DNA of 36,557 nucleotides, taken from the NCBI GenBank assembly GCA_949915775.1, contig CATLEG010000011.1:1-36557 (forward strand), written 5' to 3'. Under the pieces are notes generated by a model. It did not search any database, was not told the origin of the DNA, and worked only from the letters and a program-made list of their open reading frames with translations. Below are positions 2,965 to 29,030 of the stretch, piece after piece. Both the position numbers and the translations under genes were made by a program. How positions within the stretch are numbered: position 1 is the stretch's first letter; every line of letters begins with the position of its first letter. The stretch comes from an uncultured Candidatus Melainabacteria bacterium. GTDB lineage: Bacteria; Cyanobacteriota; Vampirovibrionia; Gastranaerophilales; Gastranaerophilaceae.

Positions 2965-5586
2965 TCATATTAGAAACTCTTTATACTTTTCAACCTGAAA
3001 TTTTAAACATGGAATGTCGTACATTTTTTTTGCAATAAGTTTAGCATTTTCGATTTTGTTCTGTATTTTAAATTCATTTAAAATACTAATAAGAACATCA
3101 ATTTCCTTATGTAAATATTCGACATCTGCAAGTGATGAAATAAAAATAGCTATCAAATTATATACAAGTGCATTATTTTGAGTAACTTTTAAATAACATA
3201 ATATTTTTTCTAAAAATTGTCCAATACTATTGTGTGCAATTAAACTTTTAGGAAAGGCTTGTTGAAGAACTAACTTTAATTCTTCTTGATACGTTTCAAT
3301 CTCATTAATATCGCAATAGCGATTAAATATAGCTAATAATGTACTTACAAAAGCTTTGTTTTTAATTTTCACAATATCAATCCAAAATGTCATAACTTTT
3401 TCTTTAGAATAATTTGGATTTTCTCTATATTTTAAACCATTTAATATATCTTGATAATCTTTGTCAGAAAAATGTTTACTAAATTCTTCAAAAATTTTAT
3501 CTTCATTAAATCTTAATTTTGAATCTAATAACATTCTTACAAATCTTGTTCTTATTTCACCTTCTTTTATTTCATTTTTTTCAAAGGCTTCTAAAATTAA
3601 TGATTTTAAATCTTTAAATTGAGGTATATAACGGAAATAAGAAAGATATCCATTTAAAAAATATTTTTTAGCTTTGTCTTTTAATTGGTGTATCCTTTCC
3701 AACAAATGTAAATCTTTATATTTATAAGACAAGTAATCATATTGCATTCCAAGATAATAATAAAATTCACGGCATCTTTCTTCATTTTCTTTTAAAAGAA
3801 TATATTCTAAGAAATTTTTATCATCATTATTAAGTACTCTGATTTTTGTTAAATGCTCCATATAACATCTAAAATTTCTGCCATGTGTAGTATTTAAAGC
3901 AGTAAAACTTATGTCATATTCATTTTTGTAATAACTTTCATCATAATCACAATAAGCAATTTGCTTTATATATTTGAAAATTTTCTTGAAATATTTGTGT
4001 CTTTTAGTTACAACATTGAAATTAAAATCTATTAATTCATACAATAAACTATAATAATCTTCTTTATTAGAATTTGTTGCAGCCAGTTTCTTATCTATAA
4101 ATAATATTGCTTTATTTAAAGAATTTATATTTTCAACATTTTGTGAAAGAACTTCTATAAAAACTCGTATAAATCCTATTTTATTTAAATTGACAAGATT
4201 ATCGTCTTCTAAATATTTGTTGATATTTTCAGATATTAATTTTTTGAACAAGTCAATAAGCCCACGTTCATTTACTTCTTCTACACTTTCTTTGTCAAAT
4301 TGAACTAAATGATGATTATATTCTCTATCTTGATTTACATATTCAATTTGCTCCTTCACAGATTTCAATCTAAATTCTTCTTCTGATATTGGTGATACAT
4401 TTCTGACCCAGCCGCCTACACCAGACTGCCAATATATTCCAGGATTTTCTTTTTCATATTGATATTTTTCTTTTAATTCATAGAATAGATTCTTAAATTC
4501 TGAATGTTCTTTTAAACCATGTAACACATTATACTTAGTTCTTTCATCTTTCTTTGGAAATTTATCTAAATACACTTTTATATCATCATTTAATGTGTCC
4601 AAATTATCTATTTTGTTAATACTTTTAAATATTTGTACTAACTCATAAAGACATATATCTGTTACCTTAACAATATTTTTTTTATTTATATGTTTAAAAA
4701 ATTCTTTTAATACATCTATATATTTATCTAAATTTTCATAAATAAAATATAAACCTAACTTTCTGAGCATAAAGATTCTTTGCGATAATAATTTCTTTAT
4801 ATTACAAGCAATATCCTTACCTGAATTTAAATTAAGACATAAAAAATATAAAATAATATCTGAAACATCACTACTCGTATAATCATTTACAAAACTCTTG
4901 TTAATTTCTTCCATATCAAATTTTTGATGCCTAAAAACATCTAATATATCATTTAAGTTATCATGTGTTTTTAAATAAACTTTATTATATTTTTCGACCA
5001 AATAATCAAAAAGAAATTCTTGTGATAGAGTATTTTGAATGTTTTCTTTACTAGTTTCGTCATTAATAATTTCGCTCAAATAATAGGTTTCATATATAAC
5101 CTCGCCTCTTTTATCAAAAGAGGTAGATTTTAATTCATATGTTAATAGAGTAGATATTGTTGCCTTTATTAAATCTTCGTATTCTACTATTTGTTCTTTT
5201 TTATATATATTTTTAACTAATTCTATTGCATGTTTATGTTTTAAAATCTTAGTGTAATCAATTTTATTTAAATCTATAATATCAAATCTATCTAATAATT
5301 CTGTTAACTTATAATATGTTGAATAATGAATATCATTAATTTCAATTTCTTTGATATTTTCATTTATTATTTCTATAATAATATCTTTAGTATTGGAATC
5401 ATAAGTGCGTTCTAAATACTGTATAACCCAATAAGATGCATCGTCTGTAAAATTTAATAGTCCTTCTTTTTGAAATGGTACTAAAAACTCTTGTGCGGAA
5501 AGTTCTTTAAAAAATAGACTTTTTTCATTTATATCAGATTTTAAATTATTACACAGTTCTTTTATAGTTATCTTACCCAAAATCAA
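2965..5586 (-). CDS. Large helical partner of the SIR2 protein, unrecognised family
   Basis: The product is 873 aa and almost entirely alpha-helical by composition (Leu/Ile/Lys/Glu/Asn-rich heptads throughout). One non-helical insert lies at about residues 383-410, with the residues I-Y-W-Q-S-G-V-G-G-W-V-R-N-V-S-P. I see no Walker, protease or nuclease motif. The start is TTG 5586 or the third codon TTG at 5580; a GGAGG lies just upstream. The gene overlaps the SIR2 gene by about 14 bp, which implies translational coupling and a two-component system. Known SIR2 defence proteins such as DSR2 fuse the NADase to a long helical sensor region. Here that region may be a separate subunit (inference). 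Confidence 0.7.
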   Translation of the reverse strand: MILGKITIKELCNNLKSDINEKSLFFKELSAQEFLVPFQKEGLLNFTDDASYWVIQYLERTYDSNTKDIIIEIINENIKEIEINDIHYSTYYKLTELLDRFDIIDLNKIDYTKILKHKHAIELVKNIYKKEQIVEYEDLIKATISTLLTYELKSTSFDKRGEVIYETYYLSEIINDETSKENIQNTLSQEFLFDYLVEKYNKVYLKTHDNLNDILDVFRHQKFDMEEINKSFVNDYTSSDVSDIILYFLCLNLNSGKDIACNIKKLLSQRIFMLRKLGLYFIYENLDKYIDVLKEFFKHINKKNIVKVTDICLYELVQIFKSINKIDNLDTLNDDIKVYLDKFPKKDERTKYNVLHGLKEHSEFKNLFYELKEKYQYEKENPGIYWQSGVGGWVRNVSPISEEEFRLKSVKEQIEYVNQDREYNHHLVQFDKESVEEVNERGLIDLFKKLISENINKYLEDDNLVNLNKIGFIRVFIEVLSQNVENINSLNKAILFIDKKLAATNSNKEDYYSLLYELIDFNFNVVTKRHKYFKKIFKYIKQIAYCDYDESYYKNEYDISFTALNTTHGRNFRCYMEHLTKIRVLNNDDKNFLEYILLKENEERCREFYYYLGMQYDYLSYKYKDLHLLERIHQLKDKAKKYFLNGYLSYFRYIPQFKDLKSLILEAFEKNEIKEGEIRTRFVRMLLDSKLRFNEDKIFEEFSKHFSDKDYQDILNGLKYRENPNYSKEKVMTFWIDIVKIKNKAFVSTLLAIFNRYCDINEIETYQEELKLVLQQAFPKSLIAHNSIGQFLEKILCYLKVTQNNALVYNLIAIFISSLADVEYLHKEIDVLISILNEFKIQNKIENAKLIAKKMYDIPCLKFQVEKYKEFLI

Positions 5587-6571
5587 CTTCCTCCGGATTT
5601 GTATACCTTATTAATGCGGGTTTTTCTTTTGAAATATTTAATATTGTTTTAGTTAAATTTTCAATAACTTCTTCAAAGCTTTGTTCGATGCCAGTACTAT
5701 CGGTATCATATACATATGTTTTTATCTTGTGATTACTAGCTATATCAAAATAATTTTTATTAAATTCATTTTCTAAAACTTTCGCTTCGCAATTATCTAC
5801 AATAACACTAATTTGTTTAAAATTTTCTGTATTAGGCTTATTCGCGATTATCTGAAGAATTTCTTCATCACTTAATGAATAACCTAAAAAGATAATATAA
5901 AATTCTTTTAATAAGTCCTTTATAAATTGTTTTTGTCGCTTATATTCATCTGAATTTTCAAGTATGTAAACTCTATTATATTGTTCTTTACTTAGGACTA
6001 AATCCATATAAGATGATTGCTTAAATTCTGAGGAGTCCCCACTAAAACGACCATGAAGATAAATTATTGAATCAAGCAAATTGCTTTGAGAAGGATTTTC
6101 CATATTAATATATGGAATGTAAAAATTTCTGTTTAGACCTTCTTCTTCGGTTTGAAACTTTTCAATCATTACATCATAATTCGTTTGAAGGATTAATACA
6201 GCTTTTTCTTTATATAGTTTATTTAAACAATTATATATTTTACTATCTTTGAAATTTTTTCGAGGGTTTTCGTAAAATAATTCTTTTAATAAATTATTAA
6301 ATTCTTGTTCTTTATTTTTATTTTTTATCTTTTCTGTACAAATACTAATTATCTTTATAGGTTTATTTAAACTTAATAAATTTAGTTTTTCAGAACGAGT
6401 AATAATTTTTTGTTGCAAGCAAAATTTCGTAATACTATTCGCTAATCCTTGCCAATCGGGCATCCCAATATTAAATCCTACACCTGAACCCAAAAACAAG
6501 CACACTCTTTTTGCTTTTATCGCATCTTGAAATTCTACTTCCTTAAATAATGACTTGTAATCTTCTAACAT
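5573..6571 (-). CDS. SIR2-domain NADase-like defence effector
   Basis: The product is 332 aa from ATG 6571. A TTG at 6598 would add nine residues but has no ribosome binding site. The SIR2_2-type fold is visible: a glycine-rich nucleotide loop L-F-L-G-S-G-V-G (residues 25-32), T-N-Y-D with the expected catalytic Asn131, L-H-G-R with His173, and I-F-L-G-Y-S-L-S-D further on. Asn131 and His173 sit close to the positions known in DSR2-type anti-phage sirtuins, which deplete NAD+ when triggered by phage proteins. No membrane segment is seen. The gene is first in a two-gene minus-strand operon and divergent from an AbiF-like gene. A TAAAAT lies 7 nt before the ATG, so the mRNA may be leaderless. 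Confidence 0.8.
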   Translation of the reverse strand: MLEDYKSLFKEVEFQDAIKAKRVCLFLGSGVGFNIGMPDWQGLANSITKFCLQQKIITRSEKLNLLSLNKPIKIISICTEKIKNKNKEQEFNNLLKELFYENPRKNFKDSKIYNCLNKLYKEKAVLILQTNYDVMIEKFQTEEEGLNRNFYIPYINMENPSQSNLLDSIIYLHGRFSGDSSEFKQSSYMDLVLSKEQYNRVYILENSDEYKRQKQFIKDLLKEFYIIFLGYSLSDEEILQIIANKPNTENFKQISVIVDNCEAKVLENEFNKNYFDIASNHKIKTYVYDTDSTGIEQSFEEVIENLTKTILNISKEKPALIRYTNPEEVDFG

Positions 6572-6718
6572 ACAATTTATTTTAATATAAATATACAAAA
6601 TTTTACGATATTTCTAAACAATAAGATGGTTAATATAAAATTACCAATTTCATTGTCAGTTAAAATAGGGGGCAGTAACATTTTCATAAGAATAAATAAC
6701 CATGCCAGCAAACTATGC

Positions 6719-6730: not shown

Positions 6731-7390
6731 ATGATAGATATTAAATCTAAAGATGAATTAATTGAGATTATTACACCCGTTAGGCTTGGTGCTTATGGTT
6801 CTAGCGATAATTCTATATTATTAAATGAATATATCTATAATCTTAAACTATCAGAAGCTTTTTATCCGGCTTTGTCATTATTGGAAATCACTCTTAGAAA
6901 TCGGATTTGCAATGCAGTTGAAAAACTTATTAGTAAAGATTGGCTTTTACAAGAACTCAATAAACAAAGTATTTTAGCCGATAAAGAGTATCAAAAACTT
7001 TTAGAATCTGCTAATAAAATTAGAAAAAGTGGAAAGAAAATAACCAATGACAGACTTATATCTGAAATGACTTTAGGTTTTTGGATTCATCTTTGTACAA
7101 AGTCATACAGACCCAAATTATGGGATAAAAAAGGTTTTTTTGAGGCTGTGTTTCCTAACTACACTAATAATGGTGATTTGAGAAAAATTGCACCTATTCA
7201 AAATGATTTGTTAAATATTTTGAGATTAAGAAATAGAATTTTCCACCACGAAATCATTATTAATGGTAATAAAACTCCGGAAGAACAATACCAATTAGTT
7301 TTAAATATGCTACATTTGTTATCGACCGGCATGGAAAGCCTTTTAAATGATATAAGCAGATTTGAAACAATAACAAAGCAAAAACCCTAG
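6731..7390 (+). CDS. AbiF/Abi_2-family HEPN protein (island copy)
   Basis: The product is 219 aa from ATG 6731. An upstream ATG at 6626 would add 35 residues that have no counterpart in the prophage paralogue. Conserved Abi_2 features are Y-P-A-L-S-L-L-E-I-T-L-R-N near residue 50, L-G-F-W-I-H-L-C in the middle, and the HEPN motif R-N-R-I-F-H (Arg167-x4-His172). HEPN proteins of this family are ribonuclease-type abortive-infection toxins. AbiF has been reported to pair with an RNA antitoxin and proposed as an ancestor of Cas13. The stop codon TAG (7388-7390) lies inside the hairpin of a convergent small RNA. It sits beside the SIR2 operon in a defence block. Confidence 0.8.
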   Translation: MIDIKSKDELIEIITPVRLGAYGSSDNSILLNEYIYNLKLSEAFYPALSLLEITLRNRICNAVEKLISKDWLLQELNKQSILADKEYQKLLESANKIRKSGKKITNDRLISEMTLGFWIHLCTKSYRPKLWDKKGFFEAVFPNYTNNGDLRKIAPIQNDLLNILRLRNRIFHHEIIINGNKTPEEQYQLVLNMLHLLSTGMESLLNDISRFETITKQKP

Positions 7391-7426
7391 CGACTCTGCA
7401 AGCAGGACATCAATCTAGGGTTATCC
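7380..7426 (-). ncRNA. Convergent ~47-nt RNA linked to the island abi gene (candidate RNA antitoxin)
   Basis: Read on the minus strand, a predicted start near 7426 leads into stem AACCCTAG (7422-7415), an inner motif TCCTGC-TT-GCAGAG, the matching arm CTAGGGTT (7390-7383) and a U run to 7380. The T tract lies only on this strand, so the hairpin ends a minus-strand RNA rather than the abi mRNA. The prophage abi copy has a homologous RNA at 28014-28064. The outer stem there is AACCTAGG/CCTAGGTT, a set of paired changes that keeps the helix. The overlap with the abi stop codon is the same in both. Confidence 0.7.
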
Positions 7427-7432
7427 AATAAC

Positions 7433-26444: not shown

Positions 26445-26941
26445 TACATTGTACTCGTGGTTTTTTGGTTTTTATCGGGGTGGGTATGCAAATTATATGT
26501 ATCTCTCATACTGTGCATTGAAGATTTTTTGTCGGTTATATCGGCATTTGATTTTATGCCGTTTGTATTTGTCAAAATTCCCTCGTGTGTTATATCTCCG
26601 ACAAGTTTTATATTTTGAAAAACGACTGTTAAGGTGTCGGTTTCTTTGTCTGCGTTAATTTGCGATCCATTTTCAAGATTTACGGATAATTGTTTTTCAT
26701 TTGTTACGGCGGGTTTATCTTCATTTGAATAAATTGCACCTAAAATAACACCGTCTTCTGAATTTTGATCCATAAGACAAACAACTTGCTCGTTAATATC
26801 CGGCATGGAATAAAATTTGTCTTTTAGTGTTTTTGTCTGTAAAACAGGCAACCAGTAAGAAGTAGAATCATCATCACCAAAATTTACTCTTGCTTGGCAT
26901 AAAAGCGGGTTTATTTGTGAAACAATACCAAATCTTAACAT
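26444..26941 (-). CDS. Baseplate spike protein gpV
   Basis: The product is 165 aa. An N-terminal OB-like region (V-S-Q-I-N-P-L-L-C-Q-A-R-V-N-F, then V-V-C-L-M-D) is followed by a beta-helical stalk (about 85-140) and an H-T-H-P motif near the C-terminus (about 151-154). In P2 and Mu spikes the H-x-H of three chains binds iron at the tip that pierces the outer membrane. It overlaps gpD by 7 bp. Confidence 0.9.
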   Translation of the reverse strand: MLRFGIVSQINPLLCQARVNFGDDDSTSYWLPVLQTKTLKDKFYSMPDINEQVVCLMDQNSEDGVILGAIYSNEDKPAVTNEKQLSVNLENGSQINADKETDTLTVVFQNIKLVGDITHEGILTNTNGIKSNADITDKKSSMHSMRDTYNLHTHPDKNQKTTSTM

Positions 26942-27903
26942 GTTTCAACCTCGCAAATCGTTTTATATCCGCTTGTTCTGTCTATGATATGGCGGACTTT
27001 TTTAAGATGATATTTCCCCGAAAAATGACCGATTCCTTTTAGTTCAATATTTAAACCCGCAACAATATATGGATTTCCGACCATTTCTATTGAACCCTCA
27101 ATTTTTGTATCAGCAGTATTAAGAGCCGCATTTGCTTTTAATATGGCTTGTTTCCTATCTGAACAACGAACATTTATTTTTAAAGTATCGCCCTTTGCAA
27201 CATCTTCATTTCGTGCAGTTGCTTTTACGGTTTTCTTTTTCTTTGGATCATAATAAGAAACTTGCACCGATTTATATTTTTGGCTTGTTTTTTCACGCAA
27301 GTTTATTTGTGTTAAATCGGATTTATAAAAGATTTGGGTTGATTTTGCACCTTTTAACTTTTGCACATCATAGAAAACAAGATTATTTTCAGCAATTTTA
27401 AATATATATCCGTATTGTTCTGCAAGTTTTGTTAAAAATGACAAATCTCTTTCTTTATTTTGGGTAATTCTATCAACCCTGACATCTTCAATTTCACCGA
27501 CTAATGTGTAACCGTGTTTGTCGGCTACTTCTTTTGCTATTTGTTTTAAGGTTTTATTTTCATATCCAACGGAATTTTTTTGTCTTAAAGGTTTTTTAAT
27601 TCCTGTTGCTAAACCTTTAATTGAAATTGTATCGGGCGGGGTTTCATATTCAAGTTCATCAATTTCAAAAGTTCCGCAATTTAAGAGTTTATCTGTATCA
27701 TAACCTATATAACATCTTAAACTATCACCCTTTGACGGAATCCACGCCCCCTGCCAAAGTTTTTCAGAGTCCTCAAAATTTATCTGCAATTCGTCAGACT
27801 CTCCATGTTCAACATCTGTGTATTCAATAGAGGTTACATATTGAGAAACATCATTTGTAATATTCTTTTGTTCGTAAAATAGTTCAAATATTGGTTTTAG
27901 CAT
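26935..27903 (-). CDS. Baseplate hub protein gpD (late control D family)
   Basis: The product is 322 aa and matches the P2 gpD/VgrG-like hub: S-I-E-Y-T-D-V-E-H-G-E-S-D-E-L-Q-I near residue 26, then K-S-V-G-Y-E-N-K-T-L-K-Q-I-A, L-S-F-L-T-K-L-A-E-Q-Y-G-Y, and a C-terminal G-K-Y-H-L-K-K-V-R-H-I. It connects tube and spike. In P2 this gene follows U and X directly. Here an abi gene and its RNA are inserted between gpX and gpD. Confidence 0.9.
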   Translation of the reverse strand: MLKPIFELFYEQKNITNDVSQYVTSIEYTDVEHGESDELQINFEDSEKLWQGAWIPSKGDSLRCYIGYDTDKLLNCGTFEIDELEYETPPDTISIKGLATGIKKPLRQKNSVGYENKTLKQIAKEVADKHGYTLVGEIEDVRVDRITQNKERDLSFLTKLAEQYGYIFKIAENNLVFYDVQKLKGAKSTQIFYKSDLTQINLREKTSQKYKSVQVSYYDPKKKKTVKATARNEDVAKGDTLKINVRCSDRKQAILKANAALNTADTKIEGSIEMVGNPYIVAGLNIELKGIGHFSGKYHLKKVRHIIDRTSGYKTICEVETC

Positions 27904-27978
27904 TTATTTAATCTTTCAATTTTTGATTAAATAATTACCGCAAAACCTATCTATAACTTAATAAATGTTAGCAAACAC

Positions 27979-28007
27979 TTGACAAAAACTGCGTTATAGT
28001 GAATAAT
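27979..28007 (+). promoter_or_regulatory. Sigma70-type promoter of the prophage small RNA
   Basis: TTGACA (27979-27984, a perfect -35), a 17-nt spacer and AATAAT (28002-28007) point at the hairpin RNA, against the late operon. The region matches the island copy: AACACTTGA at the -35 and AATAATGTTA at the -10. Confidence 0.75.
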
Positions 28008-28013
28008 GTTAGT

Positions 28014-28064
28014 GTACAACCTAGGAAGTTCTCCCTGCATTAGCATAGAAGCCTAGGTTTTTTT
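28014..28064 (+). ncRNA. Convergent ~51-nt RNA linked to the prophage abi gene (candidate RNA antitoxin)
   Basis: From a predicted start near 28014 the RNA has outer stem AACCTAGG (28018-28025) / CCTAGGTT (28052-28059). An inner stem is TTCT/AGAA with TGC-ATTA-GCA on top, and seven T's end at 28064. The T run is on this strand only. The abi stop codon (TAG on the minus strand, 28055-28053) lies in the 3' arm, as in the island copy at 7380-7426. The inner motif TCC-(C)TGC-TT-GCA-AG is shared. Confidence 0.72.
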
Positions 28065-28748
28065 GTTGCCTATATTAAGATCTTTTATTAACTTATTGTA
28101 TATATCTAAAAATGTCGAGGTCTTTTTTAGAATTTCTAAATCATCATTAGGTAGATATGAAAGCATTTCTAAAATATCATTATACAGACTTAGTGTTCTT
28201 GACGGGTATTTAAAGATCTTTTCGTAATGGAAAACCCTATTTCTAAATCTTCTTATGGTGTATAATTTCTTTGCGATATATTTTATAGAATGTTTATGCG
28301 GATAATTTACAAACACACCATAAAAGCATTTAGGTTTATTCCAAATCTTTGAATTATATTTTTTTACACATAGATTTGTCCAAAAACCAAAGTTAAGATT
28401 AGCAACAACTTTTCCTATTGTAAAATCTTTTTTTTCGGCAATACATTCATCTTTTGTTGTATTATATGCCTTTACTAATGCCGTATATTCGCTTGGGTCT
28501 AACCATACATTATTATTTATTTCATCTTCTATCCAAGTATTTGAAATATATTGTTTTAAAATACTGTCAATAGAATTTCGTAAAATGACTTCTAATGTGC
28601 ATAATTCGGGATAGATAGCCTGCGAAATTTGAATGTTATTACTGTAATTTTTAATAACATCTTGCATTGTATCTGTTTCACAATAGGCATAAGCAGAAAG
28701 TCTTTCAGCACTATATGTAGAATTGTATTTATTCATGCTATCAGTCAT
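28053..28748 (-). CDS. AbiF/Abi_2-family HEPN protein (prophage moron)
   Basis: The product is 231 aa. It shares its layout with the island protein at 6731: Y-P-E-L-C-T-L-E-V-I-L-R-N (about 46-58), L-N-F-G-F-W-T-N-L-C (about 118-127), F-Y-G-V-F-V-N-Y, and R-N-R-V-F-H (HEPN Arg169-x4-His174). Only perhaps a quarter to a third of residues agree by eye. The family acts as abortive-infection RNases, and AbiF is reported to have an RNA antitoxin. The gene is cargo between the tail genes gpX and gpD, on the late strand but with its own promoter. It may exclude other phages while the prophage is resident (inference). Confidence 0.82.
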   Translation of the reverse strand: MTDSMNKYNSTYSAERLSAYAYCETDTMQDVIKNYSNNIQISQAIYPELCTLEVILRNSIDSILKQYISNTWIEDEINNNVWLDPSEYTALVKAYNTTKDECIAEKKDFTIGKVVANLNFGFWTNLCVKKYNSKIWNKPKCFYGVFVNYPHKHSIKYIAKKLYTIRRFRNRVFHYEKIFKYPSRTLSLYNDILEMLSYLPNDDLEILKKTSTFLDIYNKLIKDLNIGNKKT

Positions 28749-28754
28749 AACACA

Positions 28755-28760
28755 ATTTTA
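28755..28760 (-). promoter_or_regulatory. -10 box 6 nt before the prophage abi start (leaderless)
   Basis: On the minus strand TAAAAT (28760-28755) lies 6 nt before ATG 28748, with TTACCA (28782-28777) as a possible -35. No Shine-Dalgarno sequence is present. The distance equals that of the island copy, which argues for a shared leaderless design. Confidence 0.45.
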
Positions 28761-28814
28761 CTACAAATAAGTCTTTTGGTAATTATTTAATTTTCAAGGT
28801 ACAAATTTTATTTT

Positions 28815-29030
28815 TTATTTTTTCCAAGGGGGTAATTCAAATTTGATAGTTTTACTTTCTTCTAATATCGGGATTTTAAGTTTTATTCCCGCCTGTAATG
28901 TCGGGGTAATTGGTACATTTGGATTTGCTTTTATAATTTCTTCGTAATTTGTAGGTGTTTTGTAATACTTGTATGAAATAAGATCCCAACGGTCATTGTC
29001 CTTTGTAATGTAGGTATAATATTCCGTCAT
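28815..29030 (-). CDS. Tail protein gpX (LysM-like)
   Basis: The product is 71 aa. It fits P2 gpX: an early Y-Y-T-Y-I-T-K-D-N-D-R-W-D-L-I-S-Y-K-Y-Y, then I-I-K-A-N-P-N-V and a final L-Q-A-G-I-K-L-K-I-P, the LysM-like pattern with W-D near the start. It probably sits in the tail hub or tube tip. It overlaps gpU by 4 bp (ATGA). Confidence 0.88.
   Translation of the reverse strand: MTEYYTYITKDNDRWDLISYKYYKTPTNYEEIIKANPNVPITPTLQAGIKLKIPILEESKTIKFELPPWKK

Follow-up and report, generated by a model that had tools for sequence, protein, structure and literature searches.

A P2-like prophage in a Candidatus Gastranaerophilales-like genome of 2.04 Mb carries, between the genes gpX and gpD and on their strand, an abi gene that is faced by a small hairpin RNA encoded on the other strand. 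The locus raises the question of what this pair is and what it does inside a tail operon. We analysed a stretch of 36,557 nucleotides around it (the window; features in Table 1). The pair is probably a type III-like toxin–antitoxin system, a divergent cousin of AbiF–AbiFr, with the RNA produced from its own counter-strand promoter and the whole carried as prophage cargo (a moron). The gene, the RNA fold, the promoters, covariation, association across phyla, asymmetric loss and AbiF homology are taken from sequence; transcription, RNase activity, RNA–protein binding, the trigger and the benefit are deduced from them.

Table 1. Coordinates of the abi/RNA module, its neighbours and its island paralogue in the window
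Feature	Position	Strand	Basis or remark
Island paralogue toxin	~6731–7390	+	34% identity to window abi over the matched part; start placed after leaderless −10
Counter-strand RNA of island toxin	7375–7429	−	R1 34.5 bits, E 9.2e-5; convergent
gpD (baseplate hub), downstream neighbour of abi	26935–27903	−	PF05954, E 5.5e-7, bits just under the Pfam cut-off
Inverted repeat flanking the module, left arm, 30 nt	27926–27955	+	80% complementary to 28762–28791
RNA promoter, −35 TTGACA	27979–27984	+	sequence
RNA promoter, −10 AATAAT, spacing 17	28002–28007	+	sequence
Counter-strand structured RNA, ~51 nt, predicted antitoxin	28014–28064	+	covariance-model match spans 28011–28067
5′ arm of outer stem	28018–28025	+	AACCTAGG (feature list: AACCUAGG); sequence and covariation
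Pyrimidine-rich 5′ side of internal loop	28026–28035	+	AAGUUCUCCC; conserved columns
Inner stem-loop UGC-AUUA-GCA	28036–28045	+	covarying inner helix
3′ arm of outer stem, contains abi stop codon	28052–28059	+	CCTAGGTT (feature list: CCUAGGUU); sequence
abi, putative RNase toxin, AbiF/PD-T4-5-like HEPN protein, 231 aa	28053–28748	−	profile, motif and structure matches
Predicted −10 (TAAAAT) of leaderless abi transcript	28755–28760	−	sequence; 6 nt before ATG (28748)
Inverted repeat, right arm, 30 nt	28762–28791	−	80% complementary to left arm
gpX (tail protein X), upstream neighbour of abi	28815–29030	−	PF05489, E 2.7e-9

A first-pass annotation of this DNA had described the RNA as a hairpin of about 51 nt with a U7 tail behind a TTGACA-N17-AATAAT promoter, and all of these elements can be read from the sequence. 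The predicted fold, with a minimum free energy of −15.4 kcal/mol (z-score −3.11), consists of an 8-bp outer stem, a pyrimidine-rich 5′ internal loop of about 10 nt, a short inner stem-loop of variable sequence, a 6-nt 3′ internal loop and a U tract. The T run at 28058–28064 contains seven T's, two of them paired, the U tract extending to 28064. Covariance model R1 scores the RNA at 70.0 bits (E 5.7e-13 in its own genome), a match by construction, as the window RNA is one of the 15 R1 seed sequences. Rfam, including the abiF family RF03085, contains no match to it. Identity with RF03085 was rejected: that model finds nothing at E ≤ 10 in window positions 28000–28080 or in the five toxin loci scanned, and nothing genome-wide at E ≤ 0.001, although control genomes were also without a match, so that the genome-wide search alone leaves absence unproven.

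The protein is matched by the PADLOC PD-T4-5 profile PDLC04038 at E 6.4e-13 (the curated cut-off is not displayed), and seven of its relatives by the PD-T4-5 profile at E 3.6e-14 to 2.6e-24. The match to Pfam Abi_2 (PF07751) reaches 17.6 bits (E 0.0048), below the gathering cut-off of 25.6; judged by its sequence, abi is a divergent relative of the Abi_2 or AbiD/F family. In an alignment of 74 homologous sequences Arg57, Asn58, Trp123, Arg169, Asn170 and His174 are invariant, the last three forming the RNxxxH motif of HEPN proteins. An AlphaFold2 model (pLDDT 94.6) has as its top structural match the PbAbiF dimer bound to its ncRNA (8vz6), whose Z-score of 11.8, over 209 residues, compares with 5.5 for the chain ranked second; helical proteins may reach such a score by chance, but three methods agree on 8vz6 and leave other chains far behind. 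Foldseek assigns this match a probability of 1.00, yet an E-value of 0.045, profile comparison gives E 0.0076, and identity to PbAbiF in structural alignments is 16–19%. PbAbiF with its ncRNA is the only convincing structural match of the modelled protein. Having a predicted HEPN fold like that of PbAbiF and the catalytic RNxxxH motif, abi is a putative HEPN ribonuclease of the AbiF/PD-T4-5 group, its RNase activity being expected from motif and fold, and it probably forms a dimer.

The annotation of abi as leaderless is a fair prediction, given the −10-like TAAAAT directly before the start codon and the absence of a Shine-Dalgarno sequence. A −10 element with at most one mismatch, 3–9 nt before the start, is found in 38 of 46 toxins (shuffles: mean 8.9, maximum 18); the toxin promoters consist of the −10 only, usually placed exactly 6 nt ahead of the ATG. 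The claim that the module repeats the design of the island also stands, the island toxin having its own convergent RNA. Beside the island module, a SIR2_2-domain gene (5573–6598) adjoins an 873-aa open reading frame (2965–6598 together, minus strand), perhaps as part of a small defence island.

The association of RNA and toxin was followed in a family set of 288 genomes, 29 of which were matched by P0001; 31 loci were read, of which 29 are assessable after leaving out L026 (contig end) and L030 (a 48-aa fragment), further P0001 match places lying outside this count. In all 29 the opposite strand encodes a hairpin RNA that overlaps the 3′ end of the toxin gene or lies just beyond it; 24 are recognised by R1 at E ≤ 0.01, one at E 0.022 and four by motif. 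This supports the annotated pairing of RNA and toxin as a functional unit. The position of the abi stop codon in the hairpin arm, which had been described as part of the same design, is true of the window (complement of 28053–28055) and of 20 of the 29 loci; in the other nine the stop lies elsewhere or the reading frame runs through the RNA gene, and a role of the stop codon in the mechanism was rejected.

In the 15 seed RNAs all 165 cells are paired, with double changes in 8 of 11 pairs (26 cells), the pairing of the outer stem being partly due to selection because the seeds (alignments A2 and A7) were chosen by eye or script for their outer hairpin; the inner helix was not used in choosing. 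None of 500 shuffles reaches the seed values and slid versions are at most 54% paired. Whereas the stems vary in sequence, the internal loop is conserved. A TTGACA-N17-TATAAT-like promoter with at most three mismatches lies just before the hairpin in 42 of 43 RNA copies; the sole 43rd, L138, is a coordinate artefact, its promoter actually being TTGAAA/TAAAAT. It is hard to believe that the hairpin is a transcription terminator and nothing else. With its U7 end it can serve as an intrinsic terminator, but the promoter directly in front of it leaves nothing else to terminate, the toxin strand has on sequence inspection no U tract behind the hairpin, and the inner helix and loop are conserved beyond what a terminator needs. 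At one locus (L074, 2720–5618), a 958-aa open reading frame, P-loop-like by eye, lies between the toxin C-terminus and the RNA, which is 2.9 kb away.

How a toxin–antitoxin pair of this kind may work is suggested by its relatives. AbiFCd is described as toxic and as neutralised in trans by RCd22, which binds it (PMC12373285), and a review describes AbiFr as binding PbAbiF and blocking the RNase with bulged nucleotides (PMC12737573). By analogy, the RNA of about 51 nt, folded as a stem, a pyrimidine-rich internal loop and a hairpin, would bind and block the abi toxin as AbiFr does AbiF. It would be transcribed from a near-consensus promoter and the leaderless toxin mRNA from a weaker, −10-only promoter, so that RNA should exceed toxin. 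If RNA synthesis stopped or the RNA were lost, through takeover by a phage or loss of the prophage, toxin would be freed and growth would stop; in this way the freed toxin would guard the lysogen against other phages and keep the prophage stable.

With AbiF–AbiFr and AbiFCd–RCd22 (type III-like toxin–antitoxin systems; RF03085; 8vz6) the module shares a HEPN toxin of the Abi_2/AbiD/F group, the RNxxxH motif, a small hairpin RNA beside the gene and the location in a prophage. RCd22, however, is described as an upstream, same-strand, co-transcribed RNA with two abiF motifs and attenuation (PMC12373285). This is not the arrangement of the window module, whose RNA is a single counter-strand hairpin with a promoter of its own, an 8-bp outer stem, a 10/6-nt internal loop and no RF03085 match. 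PD-T4-5, plasmid-borne in E. coli, has the protein family in common by PADLOC profile; its founder is presented as a toxin–antitoxin-like Abi defence gene distantly related to AbiF/D, in passages of PMC9519451 that mention no RNA partner. The E. coli plasmid relatives L186–L188 are without this type of RNA. ToxIN and other type III systems offer a looser analogy in the RNA antitoxin for an RNase toxin, in abortive infection of phages and in phage-borne RNA mimics. ToxI is a same-strand tandem-repeat array, and the fold of ToxN differs from that of a HEPN toxin. Multiple RNA repeats in a type III antitoxin have been described (PMC8860590), as has the escape of phage PhiTE from ToxIN by RNA mimicry (PMC3475682). 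A literature search at the level of titles and abstract openings found no description of a counter-strand RNA for PD-T4-5-like genes, and the orientation is provisionally new.

Outside the family, in Bacteroidota, Pseudomonadota, Myxococcota, Chloroflexota and Vampirovibrio-labelled records, the RNA was not seen 3′ of the toxin; a related RNA lies upstream instead, divergent and on the opposite strand, antisense to the presumed 5′ UTR. At E ≤ 1e-4, model R2 detects this upstream RNA in 33 of 38 loci, no more than about 110 nt from the start codon; the five loci lacking an R2 match are L086, L088, L092, L104 and L106, the first and third being cyanobacterial rows. Among 15 RNAs of the divergent layout, all 60 cells of the inner helix are paired, with double changes in all four pairs; some rows of alignment A7 are off by one column at the outer stem (seven unpaired cells). 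The R2 match to the window RNA is exact in position but weak (15.1 bits, E 0.24), and that to L003 reaches 17.7 bits (E 0.038). The layouts are linked by two loci: in L067 an R1-type RNA (31.1 bits) occupies the 5′ divergent position, and L108, on a Vampirovibrio plasmid (3815–3950), has an R2 match of 28.8 bits and a weak R1 match (19.7 bits, E 0.41) side by side upstream of the toxin. The protein tree separates the divergent-layout Vampirovibrio row from the clade that unites all convergent rows (fork 100/91). This branching points to the 3′ convergent position as the derived one; L067 lies inside the clade, on a long branch.

This type of RNA is missing beside homologues on plasmids of E. 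coli, Pseudomonas and Zymomonas, one of 11 plasmid or phage loci being positive at E ≤ 1e-4; borderline R2 matches of 17–18 bits lie upstream of the toxins of L118–L120 and L192. Another conserved, GTCCTCGGGGGGAGGC-like element precedes abi in L187, L188, L191 and L192 (E. coli, Zymomonas and Pseudomonas plasmids) and is perhaps the RNA of a further subfamily. In the Bacteroidota loci L070, L082, L091, L105 and L111 an attC-like palindrome just behind the toxin was noted by eye, as if these were integron cassettes; TAnnTTTG promoters were likewise noted by eye in Bacteroidota loci. Scanning 386 genomes of the phylum for the RNA alone with R2 gave eight matches of 25.8–36 bits; no toxin recognised by the A4 profile at E ≤ 0.1 lies next to them, and by eye they resemble coding sequence or ordinary terminators. 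Since chance matches thus reach 36 bits, genome-wide R2 scores below about 36 bits were not trusted. One scan with a stricter RNA pattern yielded no match.

The two layouts bear on how the RNA would act. Type I antitoxins are antisense to the toxin transcript, and the RNA studied here may resemble them, as it overlaps the predicted toxin transcript on the opposite strand, both transcripts being predicted from sequence. Type I toxins are small hydrophobic peptides. The abi protein is not of that kind, being a helical HEPN protein of 231 aa, and the structure of its RNA is conserved by covariation. A type I-like antisense action, in which the RNA pairs with the toxin mRNA at its 3′ end here and its 5′ UTR elsewhere, leading to decay or transcriptional interference while the protein is left unbound, seems unlikely to us, though several facts speak for it. 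The toxin-adjacent RNA always lies on the counter-strand, overlapping the predicted toxin transcript or bordering on it, a placement that direct binding would not need and that antisense control would explain, and convergent or divergent promoters would interfere with each other. Perfect antisense pairing, however, requires neither covarying stems nor an internal loop conserved across phyla; solitary RNAs persist, the RNA of L074 is 2.9 kb from its toxin, and the nearest solved relative is an RNA-bound toxin. Most tellingly, the RNA passes from the 3′ side in the family to the 5′ side in most outside loci, staying on the counter-strand and keeping its core, while the part of the mRNA that it covers changes completely; no fixed part of the mRNA can therefore be the target. 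As the fold of the RNA is conserved and the covered mRNA region is not, we place direct inhibition of the toxin well ahead. Transcriptional interference or antisense decay may be added to it by the constant counter-strand position, with which direct inhibition is compatible.

Conservation within the RNA also bears on whether it might direct the HEPN nuclease to phage RNA, as a Cas13-like guide or sensor, rather than inhibit it. AbiF has been proposed as the ancestor of Cas13 (PMC12165695, PMC12737573), which lends this some appeal. But the only unpaired part of variable length is the apical loop, which is short, and the rest is conserved, so that no variable guide segment is seen; a guide function appears very improbable.

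Direct inhibition of a toxin by its RNA also fits the pattern of loss. Run alone on the 288 genomes, R1 gives 21 matches, all of at least 51 bits, 15 of them at a toxin. At L138, where the contig ends, only a remnant of the toxin accompanies the RNA, L143 retains a 29-aa toxin remnant, and L137, L146, L147 and L148 have the RNA and no toxin (L147 is decaying, and the promoters of the last three are weakened). The RNA occurs without an intact toxin at five of the 21 (L137, L143, L146, L147 and L148). L146 (1501–1562) lies at the same gpX/gpD junction as the window module, where the RNA has been kept, the toxin is gone and a Gp49/RelE-like gene stands beside. The first-pass annotation had held that related phages with the gene and without the RNA would speak against its reading; none was seen among the 29 assessable family toxins. 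At the level of sequence, the RNA is tolerated without toxin and the toxin is not seen without RNA, as expected of a toxin–antitoxin pair.

On viral contigs the RNA-only pattern gave nine matches, five at a toxin and four without one in the stretch examined. Two of the four are firm and lie behind a gene of about 388 aa: L197 (7640–7702, minus strand; R2 41.5 bits), with an integrase gene nearby, and L203 (4104–4159, minus strand; R2 29.2 bits), with almost the same sequence as toxin-linked copies. The other two, L199 (1885–1918) and L201 (771–804), both on the minus strand and near tRNA-like sequence (L199 also near an HNH gene), match at 26.2 bits in the core only and may be chance matches, being below the trusted R2 score. 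The toxin-less phage RNAs are possible antitoxin decoys; an abiF RNA has been described in a cyanophage (PMC9964418).

Why the module sits where it does was approached through 30 related prophages (L156–L185). The gap between gpX and gpD is −1 to 9 nt in 19 of them, 94–138 nt in four and 771–1183 nt in seven. The comparison of prophages with and without the insert that had been suggested thus bears out the abi/RNA module as cargo: 19 of 30 are empty at this place and the rest have larger gaps or cargo. The junction is a cargo hotspot. It holds abi and its RNA in the window and L159, the RNA with a Gp49-like toxin gene in L175, a Gp49/HigB-like gene with an HTH gene (HigB/HigA-like) in L166 and L182 (of these two, the domain scan covered L166 only) and a PBECR3-like gene in L160; L168 has a gap of 772 nt, of which the 30 nt before gpD are identical to those of L166. 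TTAAATAATTACYG, the core of the inverted repeat that flanks the module, occurs at both ends in L003, L033, L035, L116 and L117. The L160 cargo seemingly has, by eye, a different inverted repeat of its own. The repeats at the abi cassette and at L160 could mark a unit of cassette exchange or a mobile unit. The five tree rows at or near the junction (window, L034, L035, L116 and L117) form one clade (100/99), making a single entry of the module into the prophage lineage likely.

The annotation had further proposed that the RNA, by opposing the late operon, makes a switch between lysogeny and lytic growth, late transcription of the tail operon silencing the RNA and freeing the toxin at induction. 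The geometry is real, with gpX, abi and gpD on one strand and the RNA running against them, but the switch is not supported as proposed. The same convergent layout recurs in the island and at many homologue loci whose examined stretch yielded neither gpX nor gpD; at the junction itself the abi module is one of several different cargoes. A leaderless reading frame without a Shine-Dalgarno sequence should also be poorly translated from a long late mRNA. Considering in addition the 5′-side RNA outside the family, the layout is a property of the module itself and not a product of its place in the tail operon. A switch driven by collision with late transcription is therefore improbable for this prophage, and as a design principle it was rejected as the specific explanation, since the layout exists without tail genes.

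The PBECR3-like cargo of L160, at the gpX/gpD junction of another prophage (Pfam E 3.1e-5, below the cut-off), has relatives in 19 of the 288 genomes, including the window's own (L211, G000:C10:3710–4183, minus strand). Among the 13 loci read (L205–L217), 11 have a full, highly conserved convergent candidate RNA, about 85 nt long, with a promoter and a conserved core; a contig end truncates L215, and L216 shows only part of the core. Rfam gives only chance-level matches to this RNA. The PBECR3-like protein appears to be a second, unrelated toxin with the counter-strand RNA layout.

A wider reading joins these observations; we find it plausible and advance it tentatively. On this view, a new RNA family absent from Rfam 15 would supply, in several phyla, the antitoxin to PD-T4-5/AbiF-like HEPN toxins, in every case encoded opposite the toxin gene. 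It would have shifted from the 5′ side, where it is divergent, to the convergent 3′ side without losing its fold. Solitary phage copies could be decoys against the host toxin. The same layout of leaderless toxin and convergent RNA would have arisen with the PBECR3 nuclease-like toxin at the same junction, and counter-strand RNA antitoxins would be a general class behind single-gene Abi systems.

Catalogues list PD-T4-5-like Abi genes as defences of a single gene, and the passages of PMC9519451 that describe the founder name no antitoxin. Should such genes be restrained by a counter-strand RNA, many solo Abi genes would turn out to be toxin–RNA pairs; cloning or expressing Abi genes without the RNA strand would then mislead, and the covariance models R1 and R2 would find the partners directly. 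The 5′ and 3′ layouts, the diverged stems, the solitary copies and the unrelated toxin provide a natural series for the coevolution of RNA antitoxins and toxins near the root of Cas13, one that also bears on whether phages carry RNA decoys against HEPN toxins.
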